A DNA stretch of 33,954 nucleotides, taken from contig CAINRG010000006.1 in the NCBI GenBank assembly GCA_903852585.1, positions 1 to 33,954 on the forward strand. The letters run 5' to 3'. This stretch comes from an uncultured Actinomycetes bacterium (lineage in GTDB: Bacteria; Actinomycetota; Actinomycetes; Nanopelagicales; Nanopelagicaceae). This document shows positions 6,396 through 15,823 of this stretch, piece after piece. Under the pieces are notes generated by a model. It did no database searches. It was given only the letters and a program-made list of their open reading frames with translations, and was not told where the DNA came from. The position numbers and the translations under genes were made by a program. Position 1 is the stretch's first letter. Every line of letters begins with the position of its first letter.

Positions 6396-7007
6396 TTAGA
6401 TGATGCCTGTTGTAATTGCACAGAGCACCGCAGAGATTGCAATCCATGTAAACCATGAACTTGCAGTCAATTGGCGCCAGTATTCAAGTGTTGGATCTAC
6501 CTTTGCACGTGAGCGACGAATAAAGAGACCAAGCGCGAGGAATGTGCCAATGATGTAGTGGAACATATTTGCTCCACCTAAAACGGCCCAGTTAGAGGCA
6601 TATGCGCCTTCAAAGAAGTGGCGTCCGCCATCATCAACTGAGATGAATGGCATGTGTGCTAGTTGGTGCCATTGGAGATATCCACCAACGAGCATTGACA
6701 GAAGGACGATTCCAGAAGTAACGACATTACGAGATTTCGCACCGATCTTGTGAGCGATTGCCGCTATGACAAGCGGAGCGGCAACAACCCAACCAGTTGA
6801 TGCAGAAAGTGTGTGGCCTCCCTTAGGAACCCATCCACCATTTGCATTCAACCCACGGAGATAGAAGTACGAGAAAATCATTGCTACGACAAATGCTGCG
6901 TCAGCAACGATGAGCAAGCGAACGCCTAGGCGCTCACGACGACCAACAACTGCTGGTGCATCGTGATGGATATGGAAGGTGTGATTAGCACTGGTATCTG
7001 TAGACAT
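6396..7007 (-). CDS. ctaE: Cytochrome c oxidase subunit III
   Basis: A 203-residue heme-copper oxidase subunit III of the short, roughly five-helix form. Visible features are the RRERLG stretch before helix 1, the FSYFYLRG motif at the end of helix 1, FFEGAYASNW, and NMFHYIIGTFLALGLF with the conserved His. It is an integral membrane protein that stabilises the subunit I proton uptake path. It is the last gene of the minus-strand cox operon (cupredoxin, ctaC, ctaD, ctaE). Its ATG overlaps the ctaD stop by 1 nt (TAATG), and the bidirectional terminator lies just past its end. Confidence 0.93.
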   Translation of the reverse strand: MSTDTSANHTFHIHHDAPAVVGRRERLGVRLLIVADAAFVVAMIFSYFYLRGLNANGGWVPKGGHTLSASTGWVVAAPLVIAAIAHKIGAKSRNVVTSGIVLLSMLVGGYLQWHQLAHMPFISVDDGGRHFFEGAYASNWAVLGGANMFHYIIGTFLALGLFIRRSRAKVDPTLEYWRQLTASSWFTWIAISAVLCAITTGII

Positions 7008-8872
7008 TAGTTGCCCTTTCCGTATCCATAAGGATCGCTTGTAATGACTGGGAGTTCATCAAAGTTCTCTAGAGGGACTGGGTAAGGAACAGTCCATTCA
7101 AGAGTCTTTGCACCCCATGGGTTTTGTGGAGCGATATCGCCCTTACGCCATGAGTGAATAACTGCCCAAAGAAGGATGATGAATCCAGTACCAACAAGGT
7201 AGGCACCGCCGGTGCTAATCATGTTCTGGTACTTGTACATCGCAGCAAAGCTAACAACACGTCGAGGTTGTCCTTCTGCGCCGGCGATAAACATTCCAAG
7301 GAAGAGGATCTGGAAACCAATCTGGGTGAACCAGAATGAAATATATCCAGCACGTTCGTTCAGCATGCGACCTGTCATCTTAGGGAACCAGTACGCAAGG
7401 CCAGCAACAGCGCCGGTAAGCGCCGCACCCATCAATGTGTAGTGGAAGTGTGCAGTTACATACATGGAACCATGGAGGTAGTTATCTGCAGGAACGTCTG
7501 ACAAGTAGATGCCTGTGATTCCGCCAATGAGCAGGTTCCAGATAACTGCAAAGAGAGCAAGCATTGGAAGTTTCATCCAAGGCTTACCGCGCCAGATAGT
7601 TCCAAGAAGTACGAGGAAGAGCAATCCGGTCGGAACAGAAATCATTTCTGTTGTCACCATGAATGGTCCATTTAAGGTTGGGGTCCAACCTGAGATGTAC
7701 ATATGGTGAGCCCAAACCAAGACTGAAAGTCCAGCGATACCTGCAAAGCCCATGACCGCTGCATTGAATGAGAAGAGAGGCTTTCGGACGAATACAGGTG
7801 CAATTTCCATAAGAATTGCAACGCCCGGCAACAAGATTACGTAGACCTCAGGGTGTCCCATGATCCAGAAGAGGTGGGCGTAAAGCCAACCGCTACCGCC
7901 TACATTTGCATCGTAGAAACCGGTGTTGAATACGCGATCGGTTGCTGTCTGAACCATAGCCAACATAAATGTTGGGAAGGCTGGGATAGCAAGAGCAACA
8001 GACATTGTTGCGCCGATTACGAAGATTGGAACTCGATTCCACTTCATACCCTTTGCACGCATTGCCACAACAGTTGCAGTGATATTCATTCCAGCAACTG
8101 CGGTAGAGAATGCAAAGATAATGATTGTTGCAATAAATGCATTCATTCCTGGGCCCGCTTGAACGCTCAAAGGAGCATAAGCAGTCCATCCTGTTGGGAT
8201 TCCACCGAGGAACCATGCGCTGCAAAGCACAGGAATAGCAGTGAAAAGAACCCACCATGAAAGTGCATTCAATCGAGGAAAGGCCATATCGCGGGCACCA
8301 ATCATGATTGGCATGATGTAGTTACCGAAAGGACCGGTAGCAACAATAATCATCGCAATGATCATTGTTATTCCGTGAAGTCCAACGAGAGAGTTGTAAA
8401 TAGTCGCTCCGACGAAGTGGCCACCTGGAATAGCAAGGCTTGTACGAATCATCATTGCCATAGTGCCGCCGACACCAAGCATTGCCATCACACCGACGAG
8501 ATATTGGATACCTACTACTTTGTGATCGGTGCAGTACTTGAAGTAGCGCTTAATGCCTTGTCCGTCACCAGCAAGATAGAGCTGCTCTTCTGCAGTCAGA
8601 TCTTTGCCAATTAACCAACGGAATGGCCCAATGAATGCGCCAATACCAACAAGGAATCCAATACTCCATGCAAACATTCCTGCAAGAAGAGCCTTGTTCT
8701 GCTGGTTGTAGAAATTTGCAGCATCAGCAGCGGGACGTAGCGCGTAGTAAGCGCCTAGAGCGAAAAGAATACCAACGACTGTTCCTGTTCCCATATTGAG
8801 TTTTGTTATCAAACTCTTTGCTGGGTTAGGGATTGGTCGCGAGTGCGTTGAGGTGTTGTGGAGAGTTGTCAT
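7007..8872 (-). CDS. ctaD: Cytochrome c oxidase subunit I with N-terminal extension and no K-channel lysine
   Basis: The 621-residue catalytic subunit of an A-type heme-copper oxidase. Ligands are present: His166 (low-spin heme a), His340/Glu342/Tyr344 in GHPEVY (CuB, D-channel Glu, cross-linked Tyr), His389-His390 (CuB), His475 and His477 in HFHY (hemes). The D-channel is complete: Asn184, Asp195 and Asn202 in GNY/DMAFPRLN. Two oddities stand out. The canonical K-channel lysine in VPTGIK is Leu418 here (VPTGLL), and the HD pair near the Mg site is His467-Gly468. The first 105 residues are an extension with about two extra hydrophobic helices before the usual DHKVVG start of the core. The ATG overlaps the end of ctaC by 4 nt. 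Function as an oxidase is secure; its proton-pumping behaviour is open. Confidence 0.96.
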   Translation of the reverse strand: MTTLHNTSTHSRPIPNPAKSLITKLNMGTGTVVGILFALGAYYALRPAADAANFYNQQNKALLAGMFAWSIGFLVGIGAFIGPFRWLIGKDLTAEEQLYLAGDGQGIKRYFKYCTDHKVVGIQYLVGVMAMLGVGGTMAMMIRTSLAIPGGHFVGATIYNSLVGLHGITMIIAMIIVATGPFGNYIMPIMIGARDMAFPRLNALSWWVLFTAIPVLCSAWFLGGIPTGWTAYAPLSVQAGPGMNAFIATIIIFAFSTAVAGMNITATVVAMRAKGMKWNRVPIFVIGATMSVALAIPAFPTFMLAMVQTATDRVFNTGFYDANVGGSGWLYAHLFWIMGHPEVYVILLPGVAILMEIAPVFVRKPLFSFNAAVMGFAGIAGLSVLVWAHHMYISGWTPTLNGPFMVTTEMISVPTGLLFLVLLGTIWRGKPWMKLPMLALFAVIWNLLIGGITGIYLSDVPADNYLHGSMYVTAHFHYTLMGAALTGAVAGLAYWFPKMTGRMLNERAGYISFWFTQIGFQILFLGMFIAGAEGQPRRVVSFAAMYKYQNMISTGGAYLVGTGFIILLWAVIHSWRKGDIAPQNPWGAKTLEWTVPYPVPLENFDELPVITSDPYGYGKGN

Positions 8873-9660
8873 GCGTTGTGACCTCCGTTAGCGGTAACCC
8901 AGTTTTTGAAGTTATCTTCCGTTACAACTTCGCCGCTGGTTTCCATGTAGGCGTGATAAAGGCCGCAGAGTTCTGCGCACTTCACATCAATTGCGCCAAG
9001 TTTATTTGGGACTGTATGCACGGTTGTGGTTTGCAACTTATTTGCATCCACTTTCACACCGAGTTGGACCGGCCAGAATGAGTGATTTACATCTTCTGAA
9101 GTCACATCAAATTCAACCGGACGATCAATTGGCAAAATCAACTTATCTGATTCGACGCCTTGGTCAACATACTTGAATGACCAAACCCATTGTGAGCCAA
9201 TGACTTGAACATGGATAGCTTCTTTTGCATCCGTTGTTGCTGCATTTGCCATTGTGTTGAGTTCTGCGATACCCCAGACAACTGCAACAAGTGCAAAAAT
9301 TCCGGAGACCAAGGACCAAACAACCACAACTGGCCCATTTGTACGTATAGCTGGGCCGTCAGGTGGAGGCGTATCGCCTTTGTGGCGATTTGTGACTGCT
9401 TGTGTTGCAATTCCCATAACAAGGCCGGCAATCGGTGCAGAGATGACGGTGAAGGCAACCATGATGCGCTCCATAGCCTTCATATCTGTACTCATAATTG
9501 TTGGCATCCATTTTGGATAAAACACAAGACCTAGAACAACAAAAATCGCTGTCCAGATAATTGTAAAGACTGCTGTTCGCGCCACATCGGGGCGTTTTAA
9601 AAGAGCAGTTGCGCGAGCGCCAGGTGTTGGCTTGAGATCTGGTTCGTCGTGGTTCGACAT
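8869..9660 (-). CDS. ctaC: Cytochrome c oxidase subunit II (CuA subunit)
   Basis: A 263-residue subunit II. The CuA ligands are all present: His193 (NHSFW), Cys228, Glu230, Cys232, His236 and Met239 in the segment KCAELCGLYHAYM. The aromatic electron-entry motif QWVWSFKY is at 157-164. Three hydrophobic segments can be seen (about 30-50, 68-86 and 110-133), one more than the usual two, with no lipoprotein box and no Sec signal. There is no fused heme c (no CxxCH). It accepts electrons at the outer face of the membrane and passes them to heme a in CtaD. The ATG overlaps the cupredoxin stop by 1 nt, and the 3' end overlaps ctaD by 4 nt. Confidence 0.95.
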   Translation of the reverse strand: MSNHDEPDLKPTPGARATALLKRPDVARTAVFTIIWTAIFVVLGLVFYPKWMPTIMSTDMKAMERIMVAFTVISAPIAGLVMGIATQAVTNRHKGDTPPPDGPAIRTNGPVVVVWSLVSGIFALVAVVWGIAELNTMANAATTDAKEAIHVQVIGSQWVWSFKYVDQGVESDKLILPIDRPVEFDVTSEDVNHSFWPVQLGVKVDANKLQTTTVHTVPNKLGAIDVKCAELCGLYHAYMETSGEVVTEDNFKNWVTANGGHNA

Positions 9661-10394
9661 TACTTCACCGTTACCTTTCCTGACATATATCCGTATGTGC
9701 TCATTGCAGCACCGAATTTGGCGTATGAACCATCACCACATGGGTATTCACAATTCCATACATAATCGCCAGCACCGCCGGTGATAAATGAAAATGTGAC
9801 TGTGTGTCCCTTGAAGTGAGTTCCAGGATCTTGAGTTGGAAGGAAGCCTTTGTCGCCTTCCTTTACCTGTGGAAGTGGAACGTTAACGAAAAGTGGGTCC
9901 TGTGAAGTCGAAGGAATTCCATGCAATGTAAATGTGTGTTGCACGTTATCCGAAGCCACATTGGAAACGTCAACGCCATCAATATTGATAGTGCCGCCGA
10001 CAGTTCCAACAACCTTTCCGAAGTAAGGATTGTTTAATTGTTCACCACCGTCATATGCATGAATTGTCACTGTCACATATGTGTGCGCAGGAAGAACGAG
10101 ATGAGTGGAGGGACCGTATTGAACGTAATCCTTCTTATTGATTTTGTAACCATCTTCTGCGGCGGTCGCTTTATCGGGATAGACCCCGAGGGTTGCGCTC
10201 GCTTTTGGATAGGTCTTTCCGTCCACAACAATTGTCTCTGAGCTCTTTGTTGCATACAGCGGCTTCTGTGGATCAGCGCTGAGTGAATGCAGCGTGAATC
10301 CGACAGCGCCGACAACGGCAACACCAAGAACGACAAAGACGAGTGCGCTGATCAGGCGCTTACTCGACGTTGTTCCCGAGGTAGTGGTTTGCAC
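9660..10394 (-). CDS. Membrane-anchored cupredoxin-like protein heading the cox operon
   Basis: A 244-residue protein with a single N-terminal membrane anchor (about residues 14-36) and an extracytoplasmic beta-rich domain. The C-terminal part resembles a cupredoxin: His153 and His158 in VQHTFTLHGIP, then Cys215-x3-Cys219-Gly in CEYPCG, and Met231 and Met237. The Cys-x3-Cys-Gly spacing is that of a CuA loop, but the second CuA histidine is missing and the loop to the Met is longer. The site may be mononuclear, a variant CuA, or a copper-transfer site. It starts with GTG at 10394 after a GAAGGA ribosome-binding site and is the first gene of the cox operon, coupled to ctaC by TAATG. It could be an electron carrier to CtaC or a CuA assembly factor; sequence alone does not decide. 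Confidence 0.8.
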   Translation of the reverse strand: MQTTTSGTTSSKRLISALVFVVLGVAVVGAVGFTLHSLSADPQKPLYATKSSETIVVDGKTYPKASATLGVYPDKATAAEDGYKINKKDYVQYGPSTHLVLPAHTYVTVTIHAYDGGEQLNNPYFGKVVGTVGGTINIDGVDVSNVASDNVQHTFTLHGIPSTSQDPLFVNVPLPQVKEGDKGFLPTQDPGTHFKGHTVTFSFITGGAGDYVWNCEYPCGDGSYAKFGAAMSTYGYMSGKVTVK

Positions 10395-10601: not shown

Positions 10602-11342
10602 GTGAAGCTCAACCTGATCTGGGATCTCTTCTTTGGAGCGGCAATTTCTGGCGCTGGTTGGGGTTATTTTCGCGCTAAGCCATCAAAATTCGGCATCTCA
10701 GCAGGCCGCCAGGCTCTTTTTGGGGTTTCCCTCGCTCTCCTGACCATCGTTCTCGTAGGTCCAATTGCCCATACCGCCGTCAATAACTTCACCTTCCACA
10801 TGATCCAGCACATCCTTTTGATGATGCTCATCGCCCCACTTATCGTTTTAGGCGCCCCATTTCGAATCTTGCGCATTGATCAAACACTCATCAAATACTT
10901 ATTGAAACCCGAAATCGGTTTTGGAATATTTCTTGTAACTTTAATTGCAACCCACTTCTCACCTTTAGCAAATGCAGGAATGCGAAATCCAAATATCCAC
11001 TCCCTAGAACTCATCCTCTTTATCCTGGGCGGAGTCATCTATTACTACCCTGTAATGGAGGGAAATCCACATCCATTTCACGTTCCGTATTCGACTCGTG
11101 TTATCTCACTTTTTGCGATGATGTTGCCGGAAACGATGACTGGGTTTTTTTTGTATTCAGGAAATCGAATGGTGCATTCTCTTCCCAGCACCACACCTTT
11201 TGCCACGGGTTTAAAAGAACAGCATGCCGGCGGTGCGATTATGTGGGCAATGGGAATGATGATTGATACAGTGTGGATTGTGCTTGCCGCCAGAGATTGG
11301 TTTTTGAGTGAAGCAAAGCTAGCGGAAGAAGAAGATGAATAA
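10602..11342 (+). CDS. ctaG: Cytochrome c oxidase assembly factor CtaG (caa3_CtaG family)
   Basis: A 246-residue polytopic membrane protein of the caa3_CtaG family. The signature FHMIQHILLMM with His66 and His70, followed by APLIVLGAP, is clear, and about six or seven hydrophobic helices follow. A second conserved region has METMTGFF-like residues (LPETMTGFFLY). In Bacillus the family is needed for caa3 oxidase activity, probably in copper delivery. This is distinct from the Cox11/CtaG of Proteobacteria. It starts with GTG at 10602. It is divergent from the cox operon and shares its 207-nt control region, so the oxidase and its assembly factor are likely controlled together. The small membrane protein gene overlaps its end by 8 nt. 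Confidence 0.9.
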   Translation: MKLNLIWDLFFGAAISGAGWGYFRAKPSKFGISAGRQALFGVSLALLTIVLVGPIAHTAVNNFTFHMIQHILLMMLIAPLIVLGAPFRILRIDQTLIKYLLKPEIGFGIFLVTLIATHFSPLANAGMRNPNIHSLELILFILGGVIYYYPVMEGNPHPFHVPYSTRVISLFAMMLPETMTGFFLYSGNRMVHSLPSTTPFATGLKEQHAGGAIMWAMGMMIDTVWIVLAARDWFLSEAKLAEEEDE

Positions 11343-13040: not shown

Positions 13041-14714
13041 TCAAACAGAATGGCTGCGGAAGCTTGAAATGAACTTTTCTGCGCGTAGTGCAGCCCAAGT
13101 TACTGCAGGAAGATCGCGTGATTTTGGATAGAGGACATAACGGGTTTGCCATTCTGGATCAAACTTGGCGTTGAATCGGTATAGGGACTCCACTTGAAAG
13201 AAATTGGATAAAAAGCGTATGAAATTTCGGGTTCCGCGAGTTATTGGCCCGGCGCTAATTTTATCGGCTCGCTCAAAGAGAGATCGAAAAGCTGCAAAAT
13301 TAAGAGATATGTATTTGTAGCCTTTCTCTTTGGCGTAATTCACCGATGTCACAATCATTAATTCATTGACGCCCGAGTCTGCTCCGCGTTCACGTTGCAT
13401 GCGATCAAGAGACAAACTGTGATTGGACCAAGGAACAAAATAAAGAAGTCCCTTAATTTCACCTTCTTGTCGAGTAATAGTAATAAAAGCTTCACCATCT
13501 GAATCATCACCAAAGCGATCCATGGACATAGAGAACCCACGCTCTGGAACCCCATATCTCCATTTCTTAGCAAGGTGGCGAAGTTCTTGTTTTGTGGATT
13601 CATCAAGCTCGCTCCAACGAGAAGTTGATGCTTCATAACCTTTTCGACCAATGCGATTGACCATATGTCGAACATTTCCCATAGTGCGACCTTCAAGAGT
13701 GAAATTTGAAACGTTGATAATCGCTTCATCGCCGATATCAATGGCTGTCATTCCAGCTTTTTCAACCCAGACTTCTCCGCCGCGATCACTTGCACCCATA
13801 ACGGCTGGTGTCCACGCATGAACCTTTGCCTCTTCAAGAAATGCCTCGATTGCATCGGGCCACAAACTAAATTCACCAAATGGGTCACCACTGGCAAGCA
13901 TCACTCCATTTTGCACGCGGTATGCAATTCCAGCCTTCCTATTACTACTGAATATCACTGACTTATCTCGTCGGGTTGCAAAGTACCCCAAAGAATCTTG
14001 ATCTCCATCATGGGCTATCAATTTCTTTACAAGATCGCATTGCTCATCTGTCATGACCGCAGTTGGATTTACTCGGCGGAAAAACATCGCGAATGGAACA
14101 AGAAGGACGAAGAAACCCAGGATTAGCAAAGTCGTTGAAACGAGATCTGACATTCGCTCACTCACGAAAGTAAGGGGCCCTGAGATTCCTACAAATCCCA
14201 GGAGAACCGTGAGGGCGAGATTGGAAAGTGAGGGGGTTGTGGCAAATGCATCCTTATGTCTGTTGAGGAGGATGAGTAATCCCGCAGCAAACATGACAAT
14301 AAATGTGAATATAAAGCCGTAAAGTGGACGAAGTTTTGTCGATGGATCAGATAAGGCGTAAAACTCTTTCCTAAATGCGATAAGCAAAATCAAAAGCAGG
14401 AGCGCGGTGGAGACTTGGTACGGATGATAATGAAGTCGAAAGAGATCTGATGAAATGTTAAGAATTAAAATTCCAACCGTAAGAGCCCAAGCTCGTCTCT
14501 TGCGGCGAATTAAATTGCGGGCCAAGATAATCATCGCGACACCAGTAAAGACTGCAGTAGCAAAGGCTGCTGAATTTACAAAAATGGGCAGATATCGATC
14601 AAATTCTTTCGCACGAATCTTTACCGGCGTAAGAACGTTCGCCAAAATATCAGCGATGCCAGCGAGATAAGTAAAGCGCCCAATAATGAGCGGAACAGAA
14701 TTTTTTAATGACAT
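13041..14714 (-). CDS. Phosphatidylglycerol lysyltransferase-like membrane protein (DUF2156)
   Basis: A 557-residue protein with about six or seven N-terminal membrane helices (up to about residue 213) followed by a soluble C-terminal domain of the DUF2156 / MprF catalytic type, a tandem GNAT fold. Visible family segments are GDPFGE, the long basic-rich NVRHMVNRIGRKGY, PERGFSMSMDRFGD, YFVPW, the repeated RMQRERGADSGVNELMI, and YISLNFAAFRSLF near the end. The family transfers an aminoacyl group from tRNA to phosphatidylglycerol, reducing surface negative charge. There is no fused lysyl-tRNA synthetase, unlike mycobacterial LysX. The amino acid used cannot be read. The ATG overlaps the propeller gene stop by 1 nt (TAATG). 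It is the last gene of a three-gene envelope operon. Confidence 0.88.
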   Translation of the reverse strand: MSLKNSVPLIIGRFTYLAGIADILANVLTPVKIRAKEFDRYLPIFVNSAAFATAVFTGVAMIILARNLIRRKRRAWALTVGILILNISSDLFRLHYHPYQVSTALLLLILLIAFRKEFYALSDPSTKLRPLYGFIFTFIVMFAAGLLILLNRHKDAFATTPSLSNLALTVLLGFVGISGPLTFVSERMSDLVSTTLLILGFFVLLVPFAMFFRRVNPTAVMTDEQCDLVKKLIAHDGDQDSLGYFATRRDKSVIFSSNRKAGIAYRVQNGVMLASGDPFGEFSLWPDAIEAFLEEAKVHAWTPAVMGASDRGGEVWVEKAGMTAIDIGDEAIINVSNFTLEGRTMGNVRHMVNRIGRKGYEASTSRWSELDESTKQELRHLAKKWRYGVPERGFSMSMDRFGDDSDGEAFITITRQEGEIKGLLYFVPWSNHSLSLDRMQRERGADSGVNELMIVTSVNYAKEKGYKYISLNFAAFRSLFERADKISAGPITRGTRNFIRFLSNFFQVESLYRFNAKFDPEWQTRYVLYPKSRDLPAVTWAALRAEKFISSFRSHSV

Positions 14715-15823
14715 TATCTAAAGATCCCTGTGTGACCGATTGAGTAGCGGCCGGGCTGTGGGTAGAGAGAAAGACCGTGGGGTTCTTTCCCGACCTTTAT
14801 AGATTTGATGAATTTACGATTTTCCAGGTCAAAGACATACACAACTGCGTTGTAGCGGCCAGATACCCAGAATTGTTTTCCATCAGCGGTGATTCCACCC
14901 ATATCTGGGCTACCACCTCCAGGGATTTTTATTTTGGAAACAATCTTGTTATCGCTAAATCGGAGTAGGGAGATCGAACCTTCGCCGCGATTTGAGATCA
15001 CCATATATTTTGAATCTCGTGTCACGTAGAGGCCATGTGCCTCGAGCCCTGTTGGAATAAATCCAAACTTTCCGAAATTGTCTGCTGGCATTGTCCAAAC
15101 ACCATTCGACATCATGTCGGCAATGTAAAAGGTAGAGCCATCAGGTGAAATTTTTACATCCTGAGGCATGGGAAGATTTTTTGAATGTGTGCGAGGAAGG
15201 GTCGTATATTTTTCAACTTTCATCTTCGCTGTATTCACCCAGAGAAGTTGGCCAGTAAATTCGCATGTAGCCACAAAATAATTTCCGTCTTTGGTCCAGT
15301 CTGCGTGATTTAGTCCCTTGCATGTAACCGGAACAACCTTTTTGATCGCCATCGTGTGAGGGTCACGGAAAACAAGTTGTTGGTCTGCTTCAGCCATCAC
15401 AATCGCGTACTTTCCATTTGGCGTGAAGTAGAGATTGTATGGATCATGCACATAAACAGGCTTGCCGGGCTTTCCATTTGCAGGATTTATAGGGGTTAAG
15501 TAGTTGCCTTCATTGTTATTTACCCACAACGTCTTCAAATCCCACGATGGAACAACATGTTGGGGTCCACGCTTCATGGGATATGTTGCAATGACTTTCA
15601 TTGTCTTGATGTCGATTTCAGTGAGCGAATTCGATGTGTGATTGGGGACGTAGGCAATCTGCGGAAAATTCTTTACAACATCACTGAATTGGTTAGGACG
15701 ATCGGCTGCATAAATATCGTTTTGATCTAGAACCGGTGGCATGCCGGCAAGAGGTGCTGAGGCGGTTGCAACACTTGAACCAAGAAAAGTAAGAGCAAGC
15801 AGAATTACAAATTTCTTTCTCAC
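14714..15823 (-). CDS. Secreted YncE-like beta-propeller protein
   Basis: A 369-residue protein with a Sec signal peptide (about residues 1-23, ending ATASA) and about seven repeated blades of the YVTN/YncE type. Typical blade signals include KTMKVIATYP, PDGSTFYIAD, SKYMVISNRGEGS and NRKFIKSIKVGKEPHGLSL. Several histidines recur at equivalent blade positions (GPQHVV, GLNHAD, EAHGLY, EPHGLS), as in some metal- or heme-binding propellers, though no known site is recognised. It probably acts outside the membrane as a binding or scaffold protein. The GTG start follows the stop of the NodB-like gene directly (TAA GTG), so translation is coupled. Confidence 0.85.
   Translation of the reverse strand: MRKKFVILLALTFLGSSVATASAPLAGMPPVLDQNDIYAADRPNQFSDVVKNFPQIAYVPNHTSNSLTEIDIKTMKVIATYPMKRGPQHVVPSWDLKTLWVNNNEGNYLTPINPANGKPGKPVYVHDPYNLYFTPNGKYAIVMAEADQQLVFRDPHTMAIKKVVPVTCKGLNHADWTKDGNYFVATCEFTGQLLWVNTAKMKVEKYTTLPRTHSKNLPMPQDVKISPDGSTFYIADMMSNGVWTMPADNFGKFGFIPTGLEAHGLYVTRDSKYMVISNRGEGSISLLRFSDNKIVSKIKIPGGGSPDMGGITADGKQFWVSGRYNAVVYVFDLENRKFIKSIKVGKEPHGLSLYPQPGRYSIGHTGIFR

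Follow-up and report, generated by a model that had tools for sequence, protein, structure and literature searches.

A subunit I gene of an uncultured Nanopelagicaceae bacterium encodes a heme-copper oxidase with leucine in place of the K-channel lysine and with a Glu (Glu409) and a Ser (Ser412) on helix VIII, and the neighbouring subunit II lacks the Glu of the K-channel entrance. These changes occur together in two separate clades of subunit I: clade 1, which includes the present enzyme, and clade 2. The gene lies in the window, by which we mean the whole stretch of 33,954 nucleotides that was analysed (contig CAINRG010000006.1, assembly GCA_903852585.1). We put at roughly 50% the probability that it encodes a working second CuA-type D-channel oxidase in which the K-channel has been taken apart and the active-site tyrosine, Tyr344, is served instead by a buried Glu409/Ser412 relay. 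A-type oxidases, among them the mitochondrial enzyme, are held to depend on the K-channel Lys. Natural A-type enzymes that lack this Lys and carry a three-position, two-subunit signature reveal which residues have to be exchanged jointly, and the signature is a ready set of residues for exchange with the Rhodobacter oxidase, as regards both tyrosine reprotonation and pumping.

Sousa et al. (2011) defined type A by a K-channel that includes Lys; 4 of their 1216 sequences were without the channel residues of their type, and none of these was placed in type A (PMC3084760). Loss of the K-channel in family A was reported in 2021 (PMC8239418), and, measured against the main text of that paper, the window enzyme is a further variant. 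Our full-text literature search found only this paper on K-channel loss in family A, and it did not turn up an account of the two-subunit swap; for PMC8239418, whose K-channel classification is given in Supplementary Figure 7, the comparison covered the main text.

A family A subunit I without the K-channel lysine

The following features were mapped in subunit I; domain and subunit names throughout were assigned by homology.

7007..8872, minus strand: subunit I (CtaD-like), 621 aa, Pfam COX1, with the GHPEVY active site and without the K-channel Lys
8642..8794, minus strand: two extra predicted N-terminal TM helices (residues 27-77), ahead of the 12-helix core
8267..8323, minus strand: D-channel Asn184, Asp195 and Asn202, kept (alignments)
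7841..7849, minus strand: Glu342-Val-Tyr344, equivalent to D-channel Glu286 and active-site Tyr288, kept (alignments)
7808..7810, minus strand: Met355 at the position of K-channel Ser299, lost in clade 1 only
7646..7648, minus strand: Glu409 at the Met353 position, invariant among Lys-less relatives
7637..7639, minus strand: Ser412 at the Ala356 position, third residue of the swap (relatives and column scan)
7619..7621, minus strand: Leu418, aligned with Lys362 of the K-channel (alignments)
7469..7498, minus strand: Asp459, gained, and Gly468 at the Mg-site Asp (412), both features of clade 1 and not of the swap itself

Judged by homology, the window enzyme is a family A heme-copper oxidase that departs from the strict A1 fingerprint at the K-channel. 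Family A features are the COX1 homology (Pfam, 1.4e-114), the CuA subunit II and the heme and CuB ligands (H166, H340, H389, H390, H475 and H477); R537/R538 are also retained. Among solved structures, actinobacterial aa3 subunits are the best matches, and similarity to ba3 is only weak. On NCBIfam CtaD_CoxA the protein scores 519.6, under the cut-off of 670.75. COX1 homology starts at about residue 114, and the predicted N-terminal helices span residues 27-45 and 54-77 in an AlphaFold2 model built from 37 sequences. The fold of this model is correct; its pLDDT is below 50 at residues 393-417, so the model does not place Glu409.

The original prediction of an intact D-channel was borne out. Asn184, Asp195, Asn202 and Glu342, which we take to be the equivalents of Rhodobacter N121, D132, N139 and E286, are all present, and Y124, S205, S256 and N263 complete the set. 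The enzyme thus carries the D-channel fingerprint of type A1 (Asp, three Asn and Glu278 in P. denitrificans numbers; PMC3084760), and, as in that type, the active-site Tyr is on helix VI (Tyr344 of GHPEVY). B- and C-type oxidases are defined by the lack of a D-channel and, for C-type, by a Tyr on helix VII; the window enzyme has a D-channel and its Tyr on helix VI. Subunit I of one close relative (L045) has Gly instead of Asp195; Glu at position 196 occurs once among the 82 relatives, probably in this same sequence, as if the acid had shifted by one residue.

The K-channel fingerprint of type A1 consists of Lys354, Thr351, Ser291 and Tyr280 in P. denitrificans numbers (PMC3084760). In the window enzyme Lys is replaced by Leu418 and Ser by Met355, and Thr415 and Tyr344 are retained. 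Residues 383-430 align without gaps to residues 327-374 of R. sphaeroides subunit I (1m56_A), and in this alignment Leu418 stands opposite K362, Glu409 opposite M353, Thr408 opposite T352 and Thr415 opposite T359, just as had been claimed from the sequence. Residue identities are exact, and Rhodobacter numbers outside 1m56_A 327-374 come partly from family knowledge. The solved K362M mutant (3om3_A) has its Met in the same column as Leu418, and this internal check fixes the register of the alignment. A local shift that brings a Lys to this site was not found, since Lys aligned to column 418 in 78 of 78 Lys-type enzymes in an alignment of 108 sequences. Nor did a scan of 505 columns reveal a compensating Lys elsewhere: only columns 409, 412 and 418 separate both clades from the Lys-type enzymes. 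Misalignment, sequencing error or a pseudogene has next to no probability as an explanation; the assembly is fragmented (77 contigs) and nothing in favour of an artefact was found, and it is ruled out by 82 relatives with the same residues, the open reading frame, the conserved operon and the gapless match to 1M56.

Operon and genome context

The genes around subunit I, and the altered position in subunit II, are as follows.

9660..10394, minus strand: cupredoxin with a membrane anchor, encoded by the first operon gene, possible electron donor (conservation, fold matches)
8869..9660, minus strand: subunit II with a complete CuA motif (CAELCGLYHAYM; homology)
9325..9327, minus strand: subunit II Val112 at the position of the K-channel entry Glu (Rhodobacter II-Glu101; subunit II alignment)
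6396..7007, minus strand: probable subunit III (position and operon conservation), without a Pfam or NCBIfam COX3 match
10602..11342, plus strand: caa3-type CtaG, a copper-assembly factor whose gene points away from the operon (homology)

The order cupredoxin, subunit II, subunit I and probable subunit III, together with the divergent CtaG gene, is conserved across relatives. In one of these, IMCC19121 (L049), the genes are on a complete chromosome. The product of 6396-7007 is probably a very divergent subunit III, or else another protein. The cupredoxin gene accompanies most clade 1 oxidases. Its product has no Pfam match and no convincing NCBIfam match; the best fold matches are rusticyanin and auracyanin, both weak. 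His152, His157, Cys214, Cys218, Met230 and Met236 (alignment A3 numbering) are invariant in it, and its CxxxC resembles CuA, although the second His that is usual in CuA is out of place. A beta-propeller protein encoded at 14714-15823 (minus strand) weakly matches the lactonase-type N2O reductase model; it scores 96.6 bits where the cut-off is 700, and we therefore do not call it an N2O reductase. Its gene lies near the oxidase operon in a few relatives. One relative, L069 (1784-3661 and 5903-7777), has the entire cupredoxin-II-I-III operon twice in tandem, both copies Glu-type.

The window oxidase is an accessory enzyme and not the sole oxidase of its genome, because a second subunit I on contig 38 (L001) has the ordinary VPTGVK motif and is accompanied by the subunit II entry Glu, and because second copies are found across the order. 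In a sample of 61 genomes of the order, all had a subunit I match, and about 25 of these, including all nine sampled from the window's genus, have an additional, lower-scoring and usually longer subunit I that is window-like, as typed by score and length and not residue by residue. Heme A can be made, since CtaA is encoded in the genome and CtaB within the window.

In both sequence and fold, the closest solved relatives are the actinobacterial aa3 enzymes of the bcc-aa3 supercomplex (M. smegmatis 6adq/7rh6 and C. glutamicum 7q21). These share the ligands, the Tyr and the D-channel with the window enzyme, but they keep Lys and a residue other than Glu at 409, as does L001 of the same genome, which also retains the subunit II Glu. 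What sets the window enzyme apart from them is its N-terminal extension, Glu409/Ser412 and the cupredoxin neighbour. It also resembles the "2TM" COX1 class, which has two extra N-terminal helices and often CtaG nearby, and belongs to acidophilic iron oxidisers and other deep lineages (PMC8239418); the window enzyme has two predicted extra N-terminal helices and a caa3-type CtaG beside its genes. The best fold match of its cupredoxin neighbour, a weak one, is rusticyanin. The window enzyme, however, is from freshwater actinobacteria.

Coupled exchange in two subunits and its origins

We aligned 82 relatives (window copy counted), and the contig search that supplied them returned actinobacteria only. 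T407, T408, E409 and S412 are invariant in all 82, and residue 418 is Leu in 56, Ile in 25 and Met in one. The Glu409 codon is GAA in 48 and GAG in 34 and the residue never changes. This looks like selection to keep Glu409, because the codons alternate at a fixed residue while 418 drifts among Leu, Ile and Met. A wider set of 108 subunit I sequences came for the most part from evenly drawn Actinomycetota genomes, with a few plasmid-borne loci, and is thus a census of almost one phylum. It comprised 78 sequences with Lys and without Glu409, 26 with Glu409 and a non-Lys residue at 418 (Leu, Ile, Val and one Thr), four with Gln at 418, and none with both Glu and Lys. The few plasmid loci are Lys-type or Gln-type. 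DNA-pattern scans of 396 Actinomycetota genomes likewise yielded Glu with Lys in none, a hydrophobic residue with Lys in 165 and Glu with a hydrophobic residue in 29; about 21 of the latter look like true subunit I (Ser412 codon and flanking motif), and the remainder look like chance.

When each subunit I was paired with its neighbouring subunit II, all 25 Lys-type pairs had the subunit II entry Glu and all 28 Glu-type pairs lacked it, and one further pair had a truncated sequence. Fisher values are tiny but overstate the case, because the sequences are related; what counts is how many times the events took place independently. In a tree of subunit I computed without the helix VIII columns, Glu-type enzymes split into clade 1 (20 rows, long N-terminus, window included) and clade 2 (five rows, short N-terminus), and the latter is nested near ordinary Lys-types. 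Constraining them to one clade was 57.7 log-likelihood units worse (AU p=0.0016). Therefore, the swap of Lys and the subunit II Glu for Glu and Ser most likely occurred at least twice. Column 418 is Leu throughout clade 2 and mixed in clade 1 (Leu, Ile, Val and one Thr).

It is distinctly improbable, in our judgement, that Lys was merely lost in a slow accessory oxidase and that Glu409/Ser412 are structural, for example in packing of the heme a3 side chain. The window enzyme is indeed accessory, beside a Lys-type oxidase, and other family A lineages have lost the K-channel: Degli Esposti et al. (2021) describe K-channel variants and, in one scenario, arrive at seven losses within family A (PMC8239418). 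However, simple loss leaves unexplained that the same Glu and Ser are found in two clades, that Glu never occurs with Lys, and that the subunit II Glu is lost each time.

Two further groups were observed. A sister subgroup with the QHHLF motif (L088, L089, L092 and L120) has the same swap and a changed D-channel mouth, with Arg or Lys at D132, Glu at N139 and Glu286 kept, so that both canonical channel entrances are altered. Four sequences (L117, L118, L119 and L172) with Gln at the Lys position form a separate clade and represent a third state of the K-channel; two of the four have Glu at 409, and most have altered D-channel residues.

Proton supply to the active-site tyrosine

In the reading that we favour, O2 would be reduced at the usual heme-CuB-Tyr site, and substrate and pumped protons would be taken up through the intact D-channel. 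The K-channel would have been taken apart in both subunits, with Leu for Lys362, Met for Ser299 and Val for Glu101 of subunit II, and the buried carboxylate of Glu409, with Ser412 and Thr408/Thr415 on helix VIII, would act as a proton reservoir or relay for Tyr344. Glu409 would be refilled from the active-site side and not via the old cytoplasmic K entrance. In model enzymes, the K-channel delivers only 1-2 protons per cycle, to the tyrosine, and Lys mutants still perform the first reduction step (PMC8079940, PMC8239185); only a small, specific job would therefore need replacing. The K-channel entrance of these enzymes is subunit II Glu101 (PMC8239185). A barrier lies between the end of the D-channel and the tyrosine in model enzymes (PMC8079940), and this counts against the proposal. 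The weakest step of the proposal is the orientation of Glu409, which on an ideal helix is about 180 degrees from residue 418, though Pro414 intervenes. Glu409 may face away from the channel, because the structural model is unreliable at 393-417 and no solved Glu-type enzyme was seen among the PDB alignments listed.

An alternative would be a cytoplasmic K-path that is re-routed, in which Glu409/Ser412 replace Lys362 in the upper part and the lower part opens between helices VI, VIII and subunit II. Thr415 and Thr408 are retained in swap enzymes, and C- and B-type enzymes build K-paths without Lys (PMC3084760). Indeed cbb3 (C-type) and ba3 (B-type) are likewise oxidases without the K-channel Lys, but they have Ser/Thr/Tyr K-paths and no D-channel (PMC3084760), whereas in the window enzyme both the D-channel and the Tyr of helix VI are retained. 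The lower half of the path is hydrophobic in clade 1 (Leu418, Met355, Val421 and subunit II Val112), and in the column scan no other position had turned polar in both clades. We thus consider re-routing unlikely. As the lower K-path is hydrophobic in both subunits and the D-channel is whole, entry through the D-channel, with Glu409/Ser412 serving the tyrosine, is the simplest reading.

This D-channel reading does not extend to every swap enzyme: the ordinary D-channel is not the proton source in all of them, because L088, L089, L092 and L120 are altered at D132/N139. More generally, we propose tentatively, and with more doubt than conviction, that Lys and the subunit II Glu were exchanged as a unit for Glu and Ser of helix VIII in at least two A-type lineages as an alternative to the K-channel, and that these enzymes may be functional O2 reductases whose tyrosine is fed without a cytoplasmic K-path.

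Substrate protons might instead come from the periplasm, as in cytochrome c-dependent NO reductase (cNOR), in which case the enzyme would be a non-pumping or low-efficiency oxidase or an NO reductase. cNOR lacks a path from the cytoplasm, and the pair Glu280/Ser277 lies near its active site, where oxidases have the upper K-path (PMC3431322); NorB thus shares with the window enzyme a Glu and a nearby Ser there and the lack of a K-channel. In clade 1, Asn446 and Asp459 have appeared along helix IX in the direction of the periplasm, and the Mg-site Asp has mostly been lost. On the other hand, the window enzyme, unlike NorB, has CuA, a D-channel and the active-site Tyr, which is absent from NORs and kept in all swap enzymes, and it lacks both NOR motifs, H-X-Arom-X-E and H-H-X-Arom-Arom-X17-E (PMC3084760), with H340-P-E-V-Y344 in place of the former, and HHMYI with Glu after 15 residues in place of the latter. 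An intact D-channel would serve no purpose, and Asn446 and Asp459 are missing from clade 2 despite the same swap. A NOR-like route is therefore quite unlikely.

The original prediction held that protons are handled in another way, perhaps via Glu409, and also noted Gly in place of the Asp beside the Mg-site His. The first part gains support from the invariance of Glu409, its exclusion of Lys in two clades and the loss of the subunit II Glu in step. The trait is not specific to this lineage. Gly468 is indeed present in 82 of 82 relatives; we do not count it as part of the swap mechanism, since in clade 2 the swap occurs with the Mg-site Asp retained. Asp459 occurs in all 21 clade 1 sequences, most of which have Gly468 in place of the Mg-site Asp, and the two residues together possibly mark a moved metal site.
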